Assembly: GCA_020073385.1 (NCBI GenBank) | Contig: JAIQFH010000015.1 | Location: 1-64,000 of the forward strand | DNA: 64,000 nucleotides | Direction: 5' to 3' | Source: Terriglobia bacterium | Lineage (GTDB): Bacteria; Acidobacteriota; Terriglobia; Terriglobales; Acidobacteriaceae | In this document: piece by piece, positions 55,969 to 64,000 of the stretch | Layout of the letters: each line of letters begins with the position of its first letter | Numbering within the stretch: the first letter of the stretch is position 1 | The notes under the pieces: model-generated | The model's input: only the letters and a program-made list of their open reading frames with translations | What the model was told of the DNA's origin: nothing | Databases searched by the model: none | Made by a program: the position numbers and the translations under genes

Positions 55969-57384
55969 GTGACAGTGTCTGATTCCAGAACGTCTATTCA
56001 AGATTCGTCCTCGCCCAACAACGGGCAGACGGCCGAACGCAAGCTGAACTGGCAGGCCGCGGGCAGGGCGCTTCGGCACCGAAACTTTCAGCTGTTCTTC
56101 AGCGGACAACTTATTTCCCTGGTGGGCACGTGGATGCAGACCGTGGCCCAGTCGTGGCTCGTCTACAAACTCACGGGGTCCGGGCTGTTGCTGGGTTCCG
56201 TCGGATTCGCCAGCCAGATCCCCGTGTTTCTCTTCGCGCCCCTCGGAGGAATAACTGCCGACCGGTCTAATCGGCAGCGAGTCGTAATCGCTACGCAGAC
56301 GGCCTCCATGATCCTCGCCTTGGTGCTGGCCGCGTTGACGCTTACACACAGGGTGACCGTAAAGGAGATTTTCGTTCTGGCCGCGTTACTTGGTGTTGTG
56401 AACGCATTCGATATCCCAGGACGGCAGGCGTTTCTCGTCGATATGGTGGGCAAGGGAGACCTGATGAACGCGATCGCCTTAAATTCGTCGATGTTCAATG
56501 GCGCGCGCGTGGTGGGGCCGGCGGTCGCTGGCGTTCTGGTGGCGAGACTGGGCGAGGGGTGGTGCTTTTTTGCGAATGGCGTGAGTTATATTGCTGTCAT
56601 TGTGGGCTTACTGATGATGAATGTGCATGCACCCGCCCGGGCGTCCGTGGATACGTCGCCCTTCGAGCACATCATCGAAGGATTCCGGTTTGTCGGCAAA
56701 ACCGCGCCTATTCGCGCCCTTCTTATCTTGCTTGGAGTGGTGAGCATGACGGGCATGCCCTATGTCGTGCTCATGCCGATTTTCGCGGATAAGATCCTGC
56801 ACCGGGGCGGGCAGGAACTGGCGTCATTGATCGGGTCACACGATCTGGGAGCGGTCCGGCTCGGGATCCTGATGGGCGCCGCCGGCGTGGGAGCGCTTCT
56901 CGGAGCGCTGACTCTTGCCATGCGCTCTGGCGTGAAAGGGCTCGGGACCTGGGTTTCGGTGTGCTGCGCCGGCTTCGGAGTGAGTCTCATCTTGTTCGCG
57001 TTTTCCACATCGTTCTGGCTGTCGGTTCTGCTGCTGCTCCCCGTGGGCTACTTCATCATGCTGCAGATGGCCTCATCGAATACCCTGATTCAGGCCATGG
57101 TGCCAGACGCGCTTCGCGGCCGCACTATGGCCGTGTATTCCATGATGTTTATGGGACTCGCTCCCGTAGGAGCGCTGTTGGGCGGGGCGCTGTCCGATCG
57201 CTTGGGAGCGCCCTGGACGGTGGCTATCGGTGGCTTGGCTTCTGTCCTGGGTGCCTGGTGGTTCAGCCAACAACTGCCCAAGGTCCGAGCGGAAGCTCGG
57301 CAATTGATCAGGACGCAAGGCATGACTCCGGGTGAACCGGCGGAAGCGATGACCACTCCTGTGATTGAGGTAGAGGACGACTAA
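55969..57384 (+). CDS. MFS transporter (EntS-like, DHA3 family)
   Basis: A 471-residue inner-membrane major facilitator with twelve hydrophobic segments. Starts with ALRHRNFQLFFSGQLISLVGTWMQTVAQSWLVYKLTGSGLLLG, typical of the DHA3/EntS group, and has the loop GGITADRSNRQRVVIATQT matching the MFS A-motif. DIPGRQAFLVDMV is another group hallmark. Probably an exporter of siderophores or drugs, the substrate being unknown. The GTG start at 55969 could equally be the GTG two codons later. Its TAA stop overlaps the stop of the sagB-like gene on the other strand by three bases. Confidence 0.85.
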   Translation: MTVSDSRTSIQDSSSPNNGQTAERKLNWQAAGRALRHRNFQLFFSGQLISLVGTWMQTVAQSWLVYKLTGSGLLLGSVGFASQIPVFLFAPLGGITADRSNRQRVVIATQTASMILALVLAALTLTHRVTVKEIFVLAALLGVVNAFDIPGRQAFLVDMVGKGDLMNAIALNSSMFNGARVVGPAVAGVLVARLGEGWCFFANGVSYIAVIVGLLMMNVHAPARASVDTSPFEHIIEGFRFVGKTAPIRALLILLGVVSMTGMPYVVLMPIFADKILHRGGQELASLIGSHDLGAVRLGILMGAAGVGALLGALTLAMRSGVKGLGTWVSVCCAGFGVSLILFAFSTSFWLSVLLLLPVGYFIMLQMASSNTLIQAMVPDALRGRTMAVYSMMFMGLAPVGALLGGALSDRLGAPWTVAIGGLASVLGAWWFSQQLPKVRAEARQLIRTQGMTPGEPAEAMTTPVIEVEDD

Positions 57385-58964
57385 CGACGCGAGGATTCTG
57401 ATTTGCGCAATGCGCTGCGCCCTAGCGCTATGAGAAAGATCGCGCTTTTTCCGCGCGCGTGAGGCGAGAAGAAGCTTGCCACGTCGTCGTCGTAGAAGGT
57501 GAGCCCGCTGCATCCCAGCTTCTGAGCGTAGGCTGCGAGATACAGTTTCCCGCCCAGGATTCCTGCTTCCAGTTGCGCGGCGCGATAGCCGCGGTTCCCA
57601 TAACGCTCCAGGATCTTTTTCAAATCTGCCAGGAAGAAAATGTCTACGGCCGCGTCCGCCGGGATTTGTTGTTCGAGTCCGAGGTATCCCGCCTTGTCGC
57701 GGAACTCCCCGCGCTTCAGCGGTTCGAGGAATTTCTCATCCCAGTGATAAACGTAAGCCCCCGCGGCCAACCCGATCACGTTGTTCACGATTAGGTAAAG
57801 ATCGTTGAGATGGCTTCCGGGTGGATCGATAAAATCTGCTGGGATACCCCGAGTGGCGCGATCGAGCATGGTTGAGAGTTCCGCCATTGTGATGGGATCG
57901 CGTGAGAACTGCCGCGTCGATCCCCGACGGGAGATCACCTGTTCGATCGTATCGGGCGGAATGCGCGAGTCGCTGAGCGACAGCAACGCTGAAGTAGTTT
58001 CCTTGGCGGGGGCCATTTCATTGCCGGGCGTTTTGCCCCGCCACGCGATCACCTCCGCGACTGAATCGAGAGAAGAAGCCTCATGTATCTTGCGCATCGA
58101 GGCATAGTCGACTTCCTTTGCCGAGTAGGGGACGACCGGCAGGGCTAGAGGCTCGATGGCGGGCGGTGAAGGCGGCACCAACTGCGTCCAGCCAACCGGA
58201 ACTATGGAGAATGAGACTTCGCGTTTGGTGTCCAGATCCAGCAAGGTATTAACTTGTGGGTCAATAAATCCGGTGATAACACGCGTGGGCAGACCCATGG
58301 CGCCCGAGATCGCGAGACAGTTGGCTAGGATCGTGCCATTGTCCCAGCCGAAGTGACGGTAGGTGCGGGACCGATATTTCCAGGCGTTACGCCAATACGT
58401 CCCTGTGCAGATGATGATGACAGGGGCATGCGCCACGGCCGGATCATCGCCTGCGGCAGTGATGAGTGCCTGTCGACAGTCTCCCGCTCGAAGCTGGCGC
58501 AATCCAAACTCGGCGGCTCCGAAATGGTAGACCCCAGCAGGCAGCGCCGGCGGGCTCCCGGAAAGCTGAATCTTCGATCGGAGATCAGAGCAGACGACGT
58601 AGAGTTCGATTTCGTAAAGCGCCCCCGTGCAGGCGGCAGCGCGAAAAAAGGTTTCTCCTTCCCCGTGCTTCCTGCTCTTTGTGACTCCAGCGGAAAAAAA
58701 CAGCACTTGCGCGAGAGTTTCGAGGTCGGGGACGGCTTCGCCTTTCGGCTCAACGCCGGCGGCTGCGATCGCTGACAACGCCGGCTTGCCCGTATCCTGA
58801 AAGTCACGGGGCAACCGCGTGACTTCCATTGTCGGATAGATCTTGAACAGAAGCGGCTTGTTCTCCCAATCGAGCGCGTGCGGATGCAGGCGCACGCTGA
58901 GATACGAGTGCTTGGTCCCACTGTGATACTGGCGCGCGGCATCGATCAGGCTGTTTTCACTCAA
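57381..58964 (-). CDS. SagB/ThcOx-type nitroreductase, last gene of the F420 operon
   Basis: A 527-residue FMN-dependent oxidoreductase of the SagB family, with two nitroreductase-fold halves. The first half starts ARQYHSGTKHSYLSVR, a family signature, and includes HAPVIIICTGTYWRNAWKYRSRTYRHFGWDNGTILANCLAISGAMGLPTRVITGF. The second half starts VISRRGSTRQFSRDPITMAELSTMLDRA and ends with LEAGILGGKLYLAAYAQKLGCSGLTFYDDD. The TTG start at 58964 has AGGAG nine bases upstream. It lies 21 bp after the F420:NADPH oxidoreductase gene. SagB proteins make azoles in peptide toxins, but no precursor peptide or cyclodehydratase is near. It may reduce dehydro-F420-0. Confidence 0.85.
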   Translation of the reverse strand: MSENSLIDAARQYHSGTKHSYLSVRLHPHALDWENKPLLFKIYPTMEVTRLPRDFQDTGKPALSAIAAAGVEPKGEAVPDLETLAQVLFFSAGVTKSRKHGEGETFFRAAACTGALYEIELYVVCSDLRSKIQLSGSPPALPAGVYHFGAAEFGLRQLRAGDCRQALITAAGDDPAVAHAPVIIICTGTYWRNAWKYRSRTYRHFGWDNGTILANCLAISGAMGLPTRVITGFIDPQVNTLLDLDTKREVSFSIVPVGWTQLVPPSPPAIEPLALPVVPYSAKEVDYASMRKIHEASSLDSVAEVIAWRGKTPGNEMAPAKETTSALLSLSDSRIPPDTIEQVISRRGSTRQFSRDPITMAELSTMLDRATRGIPADFIDPPGSHLNDLYLIVNNVIGLAAGAYVYHWDEKFLEPLKRGEFRDKAGYLGLEQQIPADAAVDIFFLADLKKILERYGNRGYRAAQLEAGILGGKLYLAAYAQKLGCSGLTFYDDDVASFFSPHARGKSAIFLIALGRSALRKSESSRR

Positions 58965-58985: not shown

Positions 58986-59690
58986 TCAGCGATATGCTGC
59001 AGGGGGCAGACCTGTGATGCGGATTCCAGCATGTCCTTTGTGGCGGATGTTCAGACCGATCAGCAATGCTGTGATCTGTTCAACGATGCGCGCGTTTTCC
59101 AATTTGCCGCCATCCAGGGCACGCACTCCCGGAATCTTTGCCGCCAGTTCTCGGGTGAGCTGTGCCGCATCTGGATCGTCACTGCAAACAACGACATCAC
59201 AATCGACAGGAGCATCGCCGTTGAGCAGGTCTGCCGAGAGATTGTGAAAAGCGGCGACCACGCTGATTCCCTTGGGAACCAGTTCCGCGGCTTGCTGCGC
59301 GGCTGAGCCTTGCCAGACTCCCAGCAGGCGCGAGGCGCGGCCTCCAACCGAAGATGCCAAGGGGACGGTGGCGTCGATCAGAATGCTGCCCTCCGTGATC
59401 GAGTTTTTGAGTTGCTTGAGCAGCGTCGCTTGACCCTCGAAAGGAACGGTCAACATCAGGATGTCAGCCGCAGCGCAAGCTAAACTGTTCTCCATTCCCG
59501 CAACATTGGCCTGACTTCCTGCTTTGAGCTGAATGGCAGCGGCCGCGACTTGGGCGCGCTGCTCGTCGCGCGAGCCGATGATGATGGTTTCGCCGGCGCG
59601 CGCCCAACGCAGCGCCAGACCCATGCCCGCCGGGCCGGTCCCGCCAATGATCGCAATGGGGCGAATAGACGTTCGGGGCTCAGAGCTCAT
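58986..59690 (-). CDS. npdG: F420:NADPH oxidoreductase
   Basis: A 234-residue cytoplasmic enzyme that transfers hydride between reduced F420 and NADP+. The dinucleotide fold starts IAIIGGTGPAGMGLALRWARAGETIIIGSRDEQRA, with Gly-Gly-Thr-Gly and the basic residues (SRDEQR) that favour NADPH. AADILMLTVPFEGQ and VPKGISVVAAFHNLSADLL follow, as does DCDVVVCSDDPDAAQLTRELAAKIPGVRALDGGKLENARIVEQITALLIGLN. Start ATG overlaps the stop of cofH (ATGA), consistent with translational coupling. Location within the F420 operon supports the assignment. Family resemblance to ketol-reductoisomerase-like domains is known but less fitting. Confidence 0.88.
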   Translation of the reverse strand: MSSEPRTSIRPIAIIGGTGPAGMGLALRWARAGETIIIGSRDEQRAQVAAAAIQLKAGSQANVAGMENSLACAAADILMLTVPFEGQATLLKQLKNSITEGSILIDATVPLASSVGGRASRLLGVWQGSAAQQAAELVPKGISVVAAFHNLSADLLNGDAPVDCDVVVCSDDPDAAQLTRELAAKIPGVRALDGGKLENARIVEQITALLIGLNIRHKGHAGIRITGLPPAAYR

Positions 59691-60919
59691 GCAAACTCAG
59701 CCTCGAGCGCCTGTTCTGCGGTGAATTCGTCGAGCGGCAGCTTGATGGTGATGCGCGAGTAAGTGGTGTTGCGTTCGGCCGGGATGCGCCCGATCTCGAG
59801 AATGAGGCTTTGGAAATCCTCCGGGCTGGTGTACTGACCGGCCGTGGCCCCCGCTTCGCGCGAGATGTTCTCTTCCATCAGCGTGCCGCCGTAGTCATTC
59901 GCGCCCGCATGCAGACAGAGTTGCGAAAGCTGGCGGTTCAGCTTCACCCATGAAACCTGAAGATTGTTGATCGATCCGGCGAGCAACACGCGGGCCAGTG
60001 CGTGAACCTTGAGATGTTCGGCCAGAGTTGGTCCGGTGCGGGCCAGTCCCTGATGAAAGAGGATCGTGTTCTGATGGACGAACCCAAGCGGGACGAATTC
60101 AGTGAAGCCTCCGGTTTCCGATTGAATCTCGCGCAAGAGGCGCATCTGGCGTACCCAGTGCCCGGGGGTTTCGGTATGTCCGTACATCATTGTGGAAGTC
60201 GTGCGGATCCCACAGCGGTGCGCCGTGCGGATGACTTCGATCCATTGCGCGGTCGAAAGCTTGTTCGCCGAGAGGATGTGCCGGATCTCGTCGTCGAGAA
60301 TTTCGGCCGCGGTGCCCGGCAGCGTGCCGAGGCCGTTGTCGCGCAGCATGGAAAGATAGTCGGCCAATGGCATGCCGGTGAGTTCAACGCCGTAAACGAT
60401 CTCCATCGGCGAGAAGGCATGAATGTGTATTCGCGGCACAGCATCCTTCACCGCGCGCAAAATATCGCGGTAATAGAACTTGGGAAGATTGCGGGGAAGC
60501 CCGCCCTGTATGCAGACCTCGGTGGCACCTTGTTGCCACGCCTCGACCGCCTTTCGCGCCATGTCATCCAGGCTATGGAAGTAAGCATCGGCCTCGCGCG
60601 GACCGCGGCTGAACGCGCAGAACTTGCATCCCACAAAACAGATGTTCGTGAAGTTGATATTCCGGTTCACGACGTAAGTCACGATGTTGCCCGCGAGTTC
60701 CGCCCGGAGCATGTTTGCAGCGACTAAGAGGCCAAGCAGATCGTCGCCCTCGGAGTTCGCCAAGGCATACGACTCCTCCAGGGAAAGATCACCGCCATTG
60801 AGTGTTTCCAACACTCTTTCCAGCGGACGGCGGTTTTGCGGAGTCAGACGCGACGAGATGTCGGACCAGTCGAGCGAAGGAAAGGATTCCAGTTCTGAGC
60901 CAGAAAGGTTGCGGTGCAC
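59687..60919 (-). CDS. cofH: FO synthase subunit CofH
   Basis: Radical-SAM enzyme joining tyrosine to 5-amino-6-ribitylaminouracil, the first step of the deazaflavin core; CofG completes the ring. 410 residues, with the cluster motif CFVGCKFCAFSRGP (C-x3-C-x2-C) preceded by NRNINFTNIC, and CIQGGLPRNLPKFYYRDILRAVKD, HIHAFSPMEI, NGLGTLPGTAAEIL, TSTMMYGHTETPGHWVRQMRLLREIQ, all characteristic. The C-terminus has NDYGGTLMEENISREAGA. It starts at GTG with GGAG seven bases upstream. A 254-bp repeat-bearing gap separates it from cofE. Confidence 0.93.
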   Translation of the reverse strand: MHRNLSGSELESFPSLDWSDISSRLTPQNRRPLERVLETLNGGDLSLEESYALANSEGDDLLGLLVAANMLRAELAGNIVTYVVNRNINFTNICFVGCKFCAFSRGPREADAYFHSLDDMARKAVEAWQQGATEVCIQGGLPRNLPKFYYRDILRAVKDAVPRIHIHAFSPMEIVYGVELTGMPLADYLSMLRDNGLGTLPGTAAEILDDEIRHILSANKLSTAQWIEVIRTAHRCGIRTTSTMMYGHTETPGHWVRQMRLLREIQSETGGFTEFVPLGFVHQNTILFHQGLARTGPTLAEHLKVHALARVLLAGSINNLQVSWVKLNRQLSQLCLHAGANDYGGTLMEENISREAGATAGQYTSPEDFQSLILEIGRIPAERNTTYSRITIKLPLDEFTAEQALEAEFA

Positions 60920-61173: not shown

Positions 61174-61944
61174 TCAGCGGAATAGATCGGTGGCTGCAGG
61201 ACGAAGCAGGTCGCGGACGGCGCCTGGGCCGGGGTCGTAGCGGAATCCGCGCACGATGCAGGCGGGCGCTCGGTTCAGCTTTCCACACACCAAACCGGCA
61301 GCGCAGGCCAACTCATCCGCCACCGCCTCCACACTCGCCTTGAGTTCGTACCCATGGGGATCGCGGCGGCCGCGATCATCGCGCAGAGGCTTCATGCCCG
61401 CGATCCCGATGGCGAATTCAGCCAATCCCTCGCGCCAGGGACGGCCGAAGCTGTCCGTAATGATCACTGGAACCGAAATGCCGGTCTTCTTCTTCAGAGC
61501 GCGTCGGAGGATAGCGGCGGAACGGTCGGGATCCTCGGGCAGCAGCAGCGCCGTATTCCCTCCATCCACGTTCGAGACATCAATGCCGCTATTGGCGCAA
61601 AGAAATCCATGCTGCGTTTCAGTGATGAGCACGCCGTTTTTCCGTCTTATGACGGAGCGGCTCTCCCGAAGCGCCAGTTCGATCACCCGCGCATCGAGTT
61701 TGTATTGCTCGGCCCAGGCAACCGATTCAGCCGACGGCTGGATCGACGCGAGATCGACAAGCCGGCCCTCCGCTTTAGAAACGATCTTATGTTTCACGAC
61801 GAGAATGTCGCCTGGGTGGAACCGCTGGCGGCCTCGTCGCAGCGCTTCAACCAGCTTGCCGGCGATCGACGCGCCCGGGACGATTTCTTCCGCGAGAGTA
61901 ATCGGTATCAGTCGGATTTCGCCAACTTTGCTTGTCTTTCGCAT
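61174..61944 (-). CDS. cofE: F420-0:L-glutamate ligase CofE
   Basis: Adds L-glutamates to F420-0 with GTP, 256 residues. Family motifs: GDILVVKHKIVSKAEGRLVDL, RKNGVLITETQHGFLCANSGIDVSNVDGGNTALLLPEDPD, VIITDSFGRPWREGLAEFAIGIAGMKPLRDDRGRRDPHGYEL and CGKLNRAPACIVRGF, which carry the metal-binding and substrate residues. The protein ends with the ligase domain: the C-terminal nitroreductase-like domain of mycobacterial FbiB is absent, and a SagB-type nitroreductase gene lies further along the same operon. It lies 24 bp after cofC. Confidence 0.93.
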   Translation of the reverse strand: MRKTSKVGEIRLIPITLAEEIVPGASIAGKLVEALRRGRQRFHPGDILVVKHKIVSKAEGRLVDLASIQPSAESVAWAEQYKLDARVIELALRESRSVIRRKNGVLITETQHGFLCANSGIDVSNVDGGNTALLLPEDPDRSAAILRRALKKKTGISVPVIITDSFGRPWREGLAEFAIGIAGMKPLRDDRGRRDPHGYELKASVEAVADELACAAGLVCGKLNRAPACIVRGFRYDPGPGAVRDLLRPAATDLFR

Positions 61945-61968: not shown

Positions 61969-62631
61969 TTATACCGCATCCGCGCCGCTTGTGAGTAAGT
62001 CTGCGGTCAAGTTCCAACTCCTTGCCAGACGCTGCGCGCGGGTATCTCCCGGAAGAGACAGAAGCTGCTGTAAGTCCGCTGGATTGTCGACGTCCACGGC
62101 GATCCCCGGCAGGTTCAATACGACGCAACGTTTGCCAGTGCCTAGCGCGGCAGCATGATGCGGTTTGAAGCTGTCATTCCCGAAGCGAAGTGGAAATAAG
62201 TTCGCGGGACGGCGGAAAGCGCCATTGGTACCCCGGCCATCGCCTGCGGGCACGAGCACGCTTCCTTCGGCGGGCGCGTGCTTGTAAATTTCCTGCAGTT
62301 CCCAGGACTCGATCAGAGGAATGTCTGCAGGAATCACGAGCGTGCTGTCTTCTCCGCGCTCCACGCATACTCGAGTTGCCATCTCAATCGCACTGGTTTC
62401 CCCGGGATTGTCCGGGTCAGGGATTACCTCAAACTGATACTCGGCTGCCAGTTTCGTCGCGTACGGATCGCTGGTGACGATGCCGACCGTGGGACGATTT
62501 TCCCAGTCGCGGAGTGCCGTCAATACGTCGGTCAGCATGGCTTGTGCCAGCTGTGTTCGCGCCGGCTGATCAAGCACGGAAGCCAGTCGCTGTTTTGCCG
62601 AGACGGTGTTCTTGATCGGAACCAGGATCAC
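61969..62631 (-). CDS. cofC: Phospholactate/phosphoenolpyruvate guanylyltransferase CofC (FbiD-like)
   Basis: Activates 2-phospho-L-lactate or phosphoenolpyruvate with GTP for F420 assembly; 220 residues. Nucleotidyltransferase start MILVPIKNTVSAKQRLASVL, the VIPADIPLI metal-binding strand, and RGTNGAFRRPANLFPLRFGNDSF, then VDVDNPADLQQLL near the C-terminus. All fit the CofC/FbiD family. Which of the two phospho-acids it prefers cannot be read off. The GTG start overlaps the stop of cofD by four bases (GTGA). Confidence 0.93.
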   Translation of the reverse strand: MILVPIKNTVSAKQRLASVLDQPARTQLAQAMLTDVLTALRDWENRPTVGIVTSDPYATKLAAEYQFEVIPDPDNPGETSAIEMATRVCVERGEDSTLVIPADIPLIESWELQEIYKHAPAEGSVLVPAGDGRGTNGAFRRPANLFPLRFGNDSFKPHHAAALGTGKRCVVLNLPGIAVDVDNPADLQQLLSLPGDTRAQRLARSWNLTADLLTSGADAV

Positions 62632-63614
62632 GGCTGGCGGTCCAGACGGCGAAAAGAGGTATCCGAGGCGGGCTCTTCTCGAAGCAGGCTTGCAGTCACG
62701 AAAGAGAGAGTTTCCCGCGCCAGCGCGGCTTTATCTTCGGCGCTTCGCATGATGGTCTGCGTACACTGCACGCGCAATCCGGTTTGGCGCAGAGCTTCGG
62801 CGGCGCGGGAATCGCGTGTGTCGCAGATCAGGATGTCGAGAAAGTCCTCGTAGGCTTGCGCGACTCCGGCAATCGAGCTGGGCAGTCCGTGCGCCTCCAT
62901 CAAAATTCCGGCGGGACCAGCAACCGGAGCATTCCCCACGATGGGGCTGACGGCAGCGATCTTCCCGCGGGCGTGCAACAGGGCGTCATGGATGCCCGGC
63001 ACAGCCAGGATGGGGCCGATGCTGGTGACAGGATTACTCGGAGCGATTAATACGGCGTCAGCGTTCGTGATCGCGTCGATGACTCCGGGAGCAGGCTCCG
63101 CATCCGAAGCCCCGGCGAAACGCACCGACTTAACCGGATCCTGATACCAGCGCTGCACGAAATATTCCTCGAAGCTGAGCTCACCGATCGGAGTGTCGAC
63201 ACGAGTCTCTACCCGCGAGTTGCTCATGGGCAGAACCCGCGCCTTCACGCCCAGTTTCTGCGAGATCACCGCTGTCGCTTCGGAGAGCGTCTTGCCTTCT
63301 GCGAGCAGGCGCGAGCGAAGCAAATGCATGGCCAGGTCGCGATCCCCGGTATGGAACCATGTCGGCTCGCCGAGTTGTCCCATCGCCTGCAGGCACAGGA
63401 ATGTGTCGCCCTTGACGCCCCATCCGCGCTCGCGGCTCAGCATGCCGGAGAGCACGTAGGTGATCGAATCGATATCCGGCGAGACGTAGAGACCCCACCA
63501 GAGCAAATCGTCACCAGTGTTGACGACCAGGGTAATCTCTTCAGCGGGCATGACCTGACGCAGGCCATCGACGAATTTCGCTCCACCGGTTCCGCCGCTG
63601 AGGACGCAGATCAT
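62628..63614 (-). CDS. cofD: Phospholactate transferase CofD (FbiA)
   Basis: Joins the activated phospho-acid unit to FO, giving F420-0 or its dehydro form; 328 residues. MICVLSGGTGGAKFVDGLRQVMP is the classic N-terminus, followed by VVNTGDDLLWWGLYVSPDIDSITYVLSG, GWGVKGDTFLCLQAMGQLGEPTWFHTGDRDLAMHLLRSRLL and APSNPVTSIGPILAVPGI, all conserved. Its ATG overlaps the cofG stop by four bases (ATGA), so translation is likely coupled. Confidence 0.95.
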   Translation of the reverse strand: MICVLSGGTGGAKFVDGLRQVMPAEEITLVVNTGDDLLWWGLYVSPDIDSITYVLSGMLSRERGWGVKGDTFLCLQAMGQLGEPTWFHTGDRDLAMHLLRSRLLAEGKTLSEATAVISQKLGVKARVLPMSNSRVETRVDTPIGELSFEEYFVQRWYQDPVKSVRFAGASDAEPAPGVIDAITNADAVLIAPSNPVTSIGPILAVPGIHDALLHARGKIAAVSPIVGNAPVAGPAGILMEAHGLPSSIAGVAQAYEDFLDILICDTRDSRAAEALRQTGLRVQCTQTIMRSAEDKAALARETLSFVTASLLREEPASDTSFRRLDRQP

Positions 63615-64000
63615 GCCGCCCTCCGTGCGAGGCCGTCGTCGCCCGTCGCCGCGCGGAGTCTGTCAGACAGCAGACCGGGACGCGCAATCACGTCAGAAAC
63701 GAATTCTGGATACACTGGCAGACGCTGGCGCAGAATAGCCCCCTTGGCCTCAGTGCGCAGCCGCAACTGCTCAATATGCGGCCACGGCTTTTCCGGATTG
63801 ATAAAGTCGGGGGTCAGCGGCGAAATGCCTCCCCAGTCGTTGATGCCCGCATCTATCAAGTCTTCATAGTAAGGCGCGGAAAGATTCGGTGGCGCCTGAA
63901 TATTGACCTCGGGGAGTAACAAGCGAGCTACCGCCACCGTGCGCAGCATCTCGCCTGGACTCGGCTCGGGCCAGTTCGCCATCGGAATCGTCGGTTTGAC
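63611..64000 (-). CDS. cofG: FO synthase subunit CofG, C-terminal part (cut by window edge)
   Basis: The last 129 codons of a gene continuing past the right edge. They match the C-terminus of CofG: PMANWPEPSPGEMLRTVAVARLLLPEVNIQAPPNL and INDWGGISPLTPDFINPEKPWPHIEQLRL, the well-conserved substrate-site region of the radical-SAM enzyme that closes the deazaflavin ring. The N-terminal radical-SAM cysteines are outside the window. It is probably an upstream gene of the operon running down to the nitroreductase. Confidence 0.88.
   Translation of the reverse strand, partial: VKPTIPMANWPEPSPGEMLRTVAVARLLLPEVNIQAPPNLSAPYYEDLIDAGINDWGGISPLTPDFINPEKPWPHIEQLRLRTEAKGAILRQRLPVYPEFVSDVIARPGLLSDRLRAATGDDGLARRAA

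Follow-up and report, generated by a model that had tools for sequence, protein, structure and literature searches.

A tandem SagB-type nitroreductase encoded in an F420 operon of Acidobacteriota belongs to a family that probably works with F420

The C-terminal domain of FbiB (FbiB-C), a member of the nitroreductase superfamily, reduces dehydro-F420-0 with FMNH2 (PMC6450877). As described in the same source, an overlay of its structures with F420 (4XOQ) and with FMN (4XOO) shows that F420 would lie over the FMN, which indicates that this fold is able to hold F420. Stand-alone dehydro-F420 reductases of the same superfamily have been published for Thermomicrobia (Braga et al. 2020, cited in PMC8498797 and PMC8764529). 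The use of 3-phosphoglycerate (3-PG) is marked by a serine of CofC (PMC8764529). The protein studied here is also of nitroreductase type, and its relatives appear in databases as SagB family peptide dehydrogenase, SagB/ThcOx family dehydrogenase or SagB-type dehydrogenase. We refer to it below as SagB.

The window, which is the whole 64,000-nucleotide stretch of DNA that was analysed, comes from a genome of 8.2 Mb that is listed as 100% complete; its nearest named loci place it in Acidobacteriota. On its minus strand is an F420 operon with the order cofG-cofD-cofC-cofE-cofH-npdG-SagB. The operon starts with cofG, whose 3′ part occupies 63611..64000 (TIGR03550, 130.7 bits for the window portion) and whose open frame runs past the window to about position 65017 of the contig. 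This gene is followed by cofD for the transferase (62628..63614, 328 aa; TIGR01819, 332.7 bits), cofC for the guanylyltransferase (61969..62631; TIGR03552, 151 bits), cofE for a single-domain F420-0:glutamate ligase (61174..61944, 256 aa; TIGR01916, 244.1 bits), cofH for the FO synthase subunit (59687..60919, 410 aa; TIGR03551, 488.6 bits) and npdG for the NADPH-dependent F420 reductase (58986..59690, 234 aa; TIGR01915, 234.7 bits). The last gene encodes the SagB-type tandem nitroreductase (57381..58964, 527 aa), which has a TTG start with GAGGAG eight bases upstream. Apart from cofG, which reaches into the window with its end only, every gene of the operon scores above its NCBIfam cut-off. 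A convergent MFS transporter gene on the plus strand (55969..57384; PF05977) bounds the operon and lies outside it. The initial annotation had described cofH-npdG-SagB as a tight operon. The gene order and the close spacing stand, with a 4-base overlap of cofH and npdG and a gap of 21 bases between the end of npdG and SagB, whereas 254 bases separate cofE from cofH. The operon is continuous, although its tightness is uneven.

The assignment of the 527-residue product to the SagB type is borne out by a TIGR03605 score of 165.4 bits (cut-off 78.4) and by two PF00881 matches, which correspond to two nitroreductase halves. A confident structure model shows a predicted tandem fold, and the two halves align end to end, as in tandem nitroreductases of the 3eo7 type. 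Structural neighbours of the model are McbC, ThcOx and BmdC, with the N-half matching ThcOx and McbC and the C-half matching BmdC. The single-domain nature of the 256-residue CofE was likewise confirmed, since its TIGR01916 match extends to the end of the protein, leaving a ligase domain and no FbiB-type nitroreductase domain; the match to NF009810 at cofE stops at position 265 of 449, beyond the cofE stop codon. SagB itself gives no match to NF009810 at E 0.001. In hhalign comparisons with a three-sequence FbiB-C profile, the C-half aligned over 40 columns only (78% probability) and the N-half scored 1.4%, such that the profile likeness consists of an FMN motif and nothing beyond it. The alignment ends short of P289, R337 and M372, the F420-contacting residues of Mycobacterium tuberculosis FbiB (PMC6450877), and no F420-binding residue is identifiable in SagB. 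FbiB (4xom) is not among the structural matches listed for the model, which is no evidence against a common fold. PADLOC gave no result.

Related loci reveal a recurring association with F420 genes. Among the best 80 of 142 such loci, at least 11 carry cof genes near SagB on the same stretch in various arrangements, and this number is a lower bound because many stretches are short; a further locus with cofH 6.5 kb from SagB (L061) was counted apart. The order seen in the window is common to seven loci (L006, L007, L008, L010, L011, L012 and L056), four of which have an npdG-SagB spacing of about 2.4 to 2.7 kb. Elsewhere SagB is divergent from cofD (L052), convergent with cofE (L064) or divergent from npdG-cofE (L078), and the arrangement in L070 also differs from that of the window. 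In L075 and L078, a gene for an F420-dependent PPOX protein directly follows SagB downstream on its strand, and in L070 one lies about 1.8 kb away, across cofE (TIGR03618, 108–121 bits, cut-off 79); the PPOX gene of L052 is assigned through sequence clustering only. Away from cof genes, neighbour families and clusters included no recurrent neighbour that hints at a substrate, and among the 104 nearest called neighbours at loci outside the 11 no family matched more than three. For 50 of the 80 loci, hand-picked for spread and consisting of L061 and 49 others that show no cof match nearby, the genomes were searched as a whole. CofD exceeded its cut-off in 45 of these 50 genomes, in which SagB lies away from cof genes. 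The other five (G152, G169, G171, G173 and G181) have neither CofD nor a convincing CofE and may be incomplete assemblies.

The same association is seen in draws from three phyla, which comprised 149 genomes of Acidobacteriota, 201 of Chloroflexota and 297 of a third phylum, to which G186 belongs (the genome of L071, labelled Deltaproteobacteria). Each draw of these 647 genomes includes its own centre genome, picked for having SagB, and the score limits for close relatives were chosen after gaps in the scores had been seen. The draws overlap the set of 50 through G170, G185, G186 and G195 and through the pairs G116/G169 and G148/G183. In Acidobacteriota, SagB is present in 7 genomes and CofD in 22, with both in 6; the exception, G116 (90% complete), has a SagB sequence identical to that of L043, whose genome is G169. 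SagB and cofD are on separate contigs in G065, G107, G066 and G148, which argues that the link to F420 is more than operon inheritance. Nine Chloroflexota genomes have a tandem relative, eight at 330 bits or more and G293 as two fragments; seven of the nine have CofD, G313 has CofE and G303 has an FbiB-C homologue. Within this phylum alone the link is weak (p 0.02) because most genomes there (133/201) have some F420 gene. The nine genomes of the third phylum with a relative at 500 bits or more all have CofE, compared to 15 of 297 overall (p 1e-13, phylogeny ignored; one of the 15, G475, has a partial CofE match only). As a negative control, CofE was found in none of the 16 genomes of that phylum that have only a distant tandem relative (207–268 bits). 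A C-T-G-A motif was considered as a mark of the F420-linked clade and rejected as not required, because CofE is also present in four genomes of the third phylum whose motif is SAGALYP.

When the draws are pooled, 25 genomes have a close relative and 24 of them carry F420 biosynthesis genes, against a background of 170/647 (p 6e-14, phylogeny ignored), and the figures without the three centre genomes are 21/22 and 167/644 (p 3e-12, phylogeny ignored). With the exceptions of G116 and the five CofD-negative genomes noted above, the family is confined to genomes with F420 genes. Thus, the tie to F420 that the initial annotation had drawn from a single operon extends to the close family, and a wide occurrence without cof genes, which would have spoken against it, was not seen. 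We consider the association with F420 to be nearly certain. The family is found almost only in F420-making bacteria and probably works with this cofactor.

A narrower proposal of the initial annotation was that SagB supplies in trans a dehydro-F420-0 reductase activity that is missing from the pathway. In this case the FMNH2 of SagB would reduce the enolpyruvyl double bond before CofE adds glutamates or, in a weaker form, SagB would repair dehydro-F420 that results from mistaken use of PEP by CofC/CofD. The two forms together seem to us possible but rather unlikely, and slightly less likely still is the prospect that SagB is an independently recruited tandem reductase, obligatory or for repair, that serves several FbiB-C-less phyla as a second evolutionary solution. 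The precedent of FbiB-C, from the same superfamily, favours such a role, as does the absence of a second domain from CofE in each of the 22 genomes that have it among 23 searched. With a score of roughly 150 bits upwards on the C-half of NF009810 as the mark of an FbiB-C homologue (generic nitroreductases reach at most 65), such a homologue is missing from 47 of the 50 SagB genomes, the exceptions being G170, G185 and G197; it is also absent from all 22 CofD-positive Acidobacteriota, whether SagB is present or not. Among the CofD-positive Acidobacteriota, 11 of the 16 that lack SagB but 1 of the 6 that have it give weak matches to the FbiB-C half (E 1e-5 or better, at most 65 bits). These would agree with the proposal, although this search also fires in 10 of 14 control genomes, which makes the meaning of the weak matches doubtful. 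Moreover, SagB is the only PF00881 protein in G066 and G084, and the only other one in the source genome, a SagB-like protein below the TIGR03605 cut-off (46.5 bits), is probably exported, as judged by eye from an N-terminal signal peptide. Among 162 F420 producers from the three phyla, SagB accompanies 19 of the 88 that lack FbiB-C and 3 of the 74 that have it (p 0.001, uncorrected). However, this seeming exclusion is not significant in independent pairs on a CofD tree of 115 genomes (21/22 Acidobacteriota, 80/125 Chloroflexota and 14/15 of the third phylum), and Chloroflexota taken by themselves show no significant difference either (p 0.13 and 0.65). On that tree SagB requires at least 14 changes for 21 presences, and FbiB-C 10 changes for 41. 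Chloroflexota were counted as FbiB-C-positive when they gave two matches to NF009810 of E 1e-22 or lower (71 genomes), to which G252 and G342 were added; G221 and G310, counted as positive, may instead have split ligases. A stop codon interrupts the over-cut-off NF009810 matches of G170 and of Chloroflexota, which suggests neighbouring genes instead of fusions; open frames show this for G252 and G342 only. Further points against a reductase are that 69 of the 88 producers without FbiB-C also lack SagB, that SagB and FbiB-C coexist in G170, G185, G197 and G231, and that the profile likeness between the two is limited to the 40-column FMN motif.

The strongest evidence against this role comes from genomes that make F420 without SagB. 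G074, which is of the window's genus and listed as 100% complete, has the whole cofG-cofD-cofC-cofE-cofH-npdG set with a CofD that is 83% identical, yet it has no SagB, no SagB remnant in the stretch between npdG and the transporter and no FbiB-C match at 1e-5. Its sole PF00881 protein is of the malonic semialdehyde reductase (RutE) type (NF003768, 301 bits). The place of SagB is equally empty in G022. G009, G023, G045 and G124 are CofD-positive as well, and they too lack SagB and show no FbiB-C match at 1e-5; G124 (91% complete) has no PF00881 match at this threshold. Either the CofD of this operon does not make dehydro-F420-0, in which case the reductase role falls, or another enzyme carries out the reduction, or G074 lives with dehydro-F420. 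The window's CofC has glycine at the position, by our own count in an alignment, of the diagnostic serine of 3-PG-type CofC, so that 3-PG-F420 is unlikely and 2-phospholactate (2-PL) or PEP is possible. PEP would suit a reductase, and a 2-PL-derived intermediate would make one unneeded. The window's CofD is 41% identical to that of Methanosarcina mazei and 35% identical to FbiA of M. smegmatis, values that are uninformative on type and if anything lean to 2-PL, and no position among 140 CofD genes interpretably separates Chloroflexota with FbiB-C from those without. The expected co-occurrence of SagB with a single-domain cofE in Acidobacteriota stands only in part, as six of seven SagB genomes have CofD and CofE is single-domain, but SagB is present in only 6 of 22 CofD-positive genomes. 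Some absences of SagB may reflect incomplete draft assemblies, though not readily that in G074, given its listed completeness. With 16 of the 22 CofD-positive Acidobacteriota lacking SagB, G074 and G124 among them, and with a few genomes having both proteins, the proposal that SagB is the missing reductase is not supported.

Two other readings of the locus carry less weight. SagB might act in some other step of F420 maturation or turnover, in which it would alter or mend F420 itself or its tail by a reaction undescribed so far. The dependence on F420 genes and the operon position agree with this, and it accounts for the dispensability of the gene, but F420 roles outside Actinobacteria are described as lacking experimental study in the accessible text of a 2021 FEMS review (PMC8498797), and we judge it improbable. 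Far less credible is that the gene encodes a SagB/McbC-type peptide-azoline dehydrogenase and is in the operon by chance. The TIGR03605 score, which is well above the cut-off, and the structural neighbours McbC, ThcOx and BmdC fit such an enzyme, but the co-occurrence with F420 genes far exceeds background. Furthermore, no YcaO cyclodehydratase or precursor peptide partner is present among the nine genes annotated at 55–64 kb, and no cyclodehydratase stands out in the best 25 of 165 families of the 104 neighbours; a linkage of relatives to such genes would have spoken against the initial annotation.

We tentatively favour, as the best single explanation and at somewhat under even odds, an accessory F420-coupled FMN oxidoreductase that is not essential to F420 synthesis. 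Its two nitroreductase halves would, most likely, pair within the one chain as a pseudo-dimer with bound FMN. NpdG, encoded next door, would make F420H2, which would hand its hydride to the SagB-bound FMN, and the reduced FMN could then reduce a small molecule. Alternatively, the direction might be reversed, with SagB oxidising its substrate and F420 serving as the acceptor. An accessory F420 user that is inessential for synthesis would be gained and lost among F420 makers. The patchiness of the family and the adjoining genes for F420-dependent PPOX proteins at some loci fit an accessory FMN enzyme better than a missing reductase. Its need for F420, its ready gain and loss, its often solitary position and its occasional place beside cof or PPOX genes make the gene look like that of an F420 user. 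Against this reading, the operon partners, biosynthetic genes and npdG, fit a biosynthetic step equally well, SagB has no identifiable F420-binding residue, no recurrent neighbour away from cof genes hints at a substrate, and no nitroreductase-fold enzyme is known to us that has F420H2 as its reductant.

A search of the open-licence literature yielded no report joining SagB-type proteins with F420; a paper on Actinomarinales (PMC7771536) contains both terms, with no passage joining them in its accessible text, and both terms also occur in an editorial. What is new, as far as searched, is a branch of tandem SagB-type proteins that is bound to F420 and present in several phyla. With a stand-alone nitroreductase in the reductase role already published (Braga et al. 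2020), the novelty would be limited to the tandem SagB type, which the initial annotation had named as new, and to the tie with F420. The data place one large branch of SagB-named proteins in the F420 metabolism of mostly uncultured lineages. Use of F420H2 by SagB would add a structurally new class to the F420 enzymes, and reduction of dehydro-F420-0 by it would close a gap in the pathway.

A parallel is found in the stand-alone dehydro-F420 reductases of Thermomicrobia, which are free-standing nitroreductase-superfamily enzymes in F420 synthesis. These are reportedly single-domain homologues of FbiB-C rather than tandem SagB-type proteins. The FbiB C-terminal domain is likewise of the nitroreductase superfamily, and the C-half of SagB has an FMN-type RRxSxR motif; however, FbiB-C is a single half, and SagB shows neither the APSPHN nor the YPDxxRxxAE stretch of that domain. 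Like SagB, the protein Ava_2154 of Anabaena variabilis (PDB 3eo7, entitled putative nitroreductase) is a tandem one. It has the motif PSAGGLYP, whereas the window's family mostly has A/S-C-T-GALY. To our knowledge, Anabaena has no F420. The window's protein is related to the peptide oxidases SagB, McbC, ThcOx and BmdC by its TIGR03605 score above the cut-off and by the matches of its halves; unlike them, it has no peptide-pathway partner in view, is tandem and is linked to F420.

The place that SagB, the tandem nitroreductase, takes at the end of the F420 operon is occupied in G074, a genome of the same genus, by a short reverse-strand reading frame (L304:5100-5700), the sequence of which, judged by eye, looks like that of a STAS anti-sigma antagonist. 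At five other loci, glycine-betaine-type ABC transporter-like genes are present with SagB close behind; all five (L009, L010, L011, L012 and L056) were assigned by sequence clustering, and OpuAC was confirmed by Pfam at L009 only.

The contig of SagB locus L072 bears the title Klebsiella pneumoniae, but its SagB groups in a pair with that of the Binatia locus L083. In addition, the CofD search of genomes with SagB found CofD in the genome behind L072, and for these two reasons the locus probably represents a mislabelled bin. The genome behind another locus, L028 (G159), encodes two CofD proteins, both full, and two CofE proteins. In the Chloroflexota genome G303 (L147), which was searched for CofD and CofE and yielded neither, tandem SagB and a homologue of the C-terminal reductase domain of FbiB are both present.

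The source genome of the window encodes a second SagB-like protein (L001:1378-2001, contig C49), which scores 46.5 bits against TIGR03605, below the cut-off of 78.4 bits, and carries an apparent signal peptide when inspected by eye. A protein of the Acidobacteriota genome G107 (L124) resembles it, again by eye.
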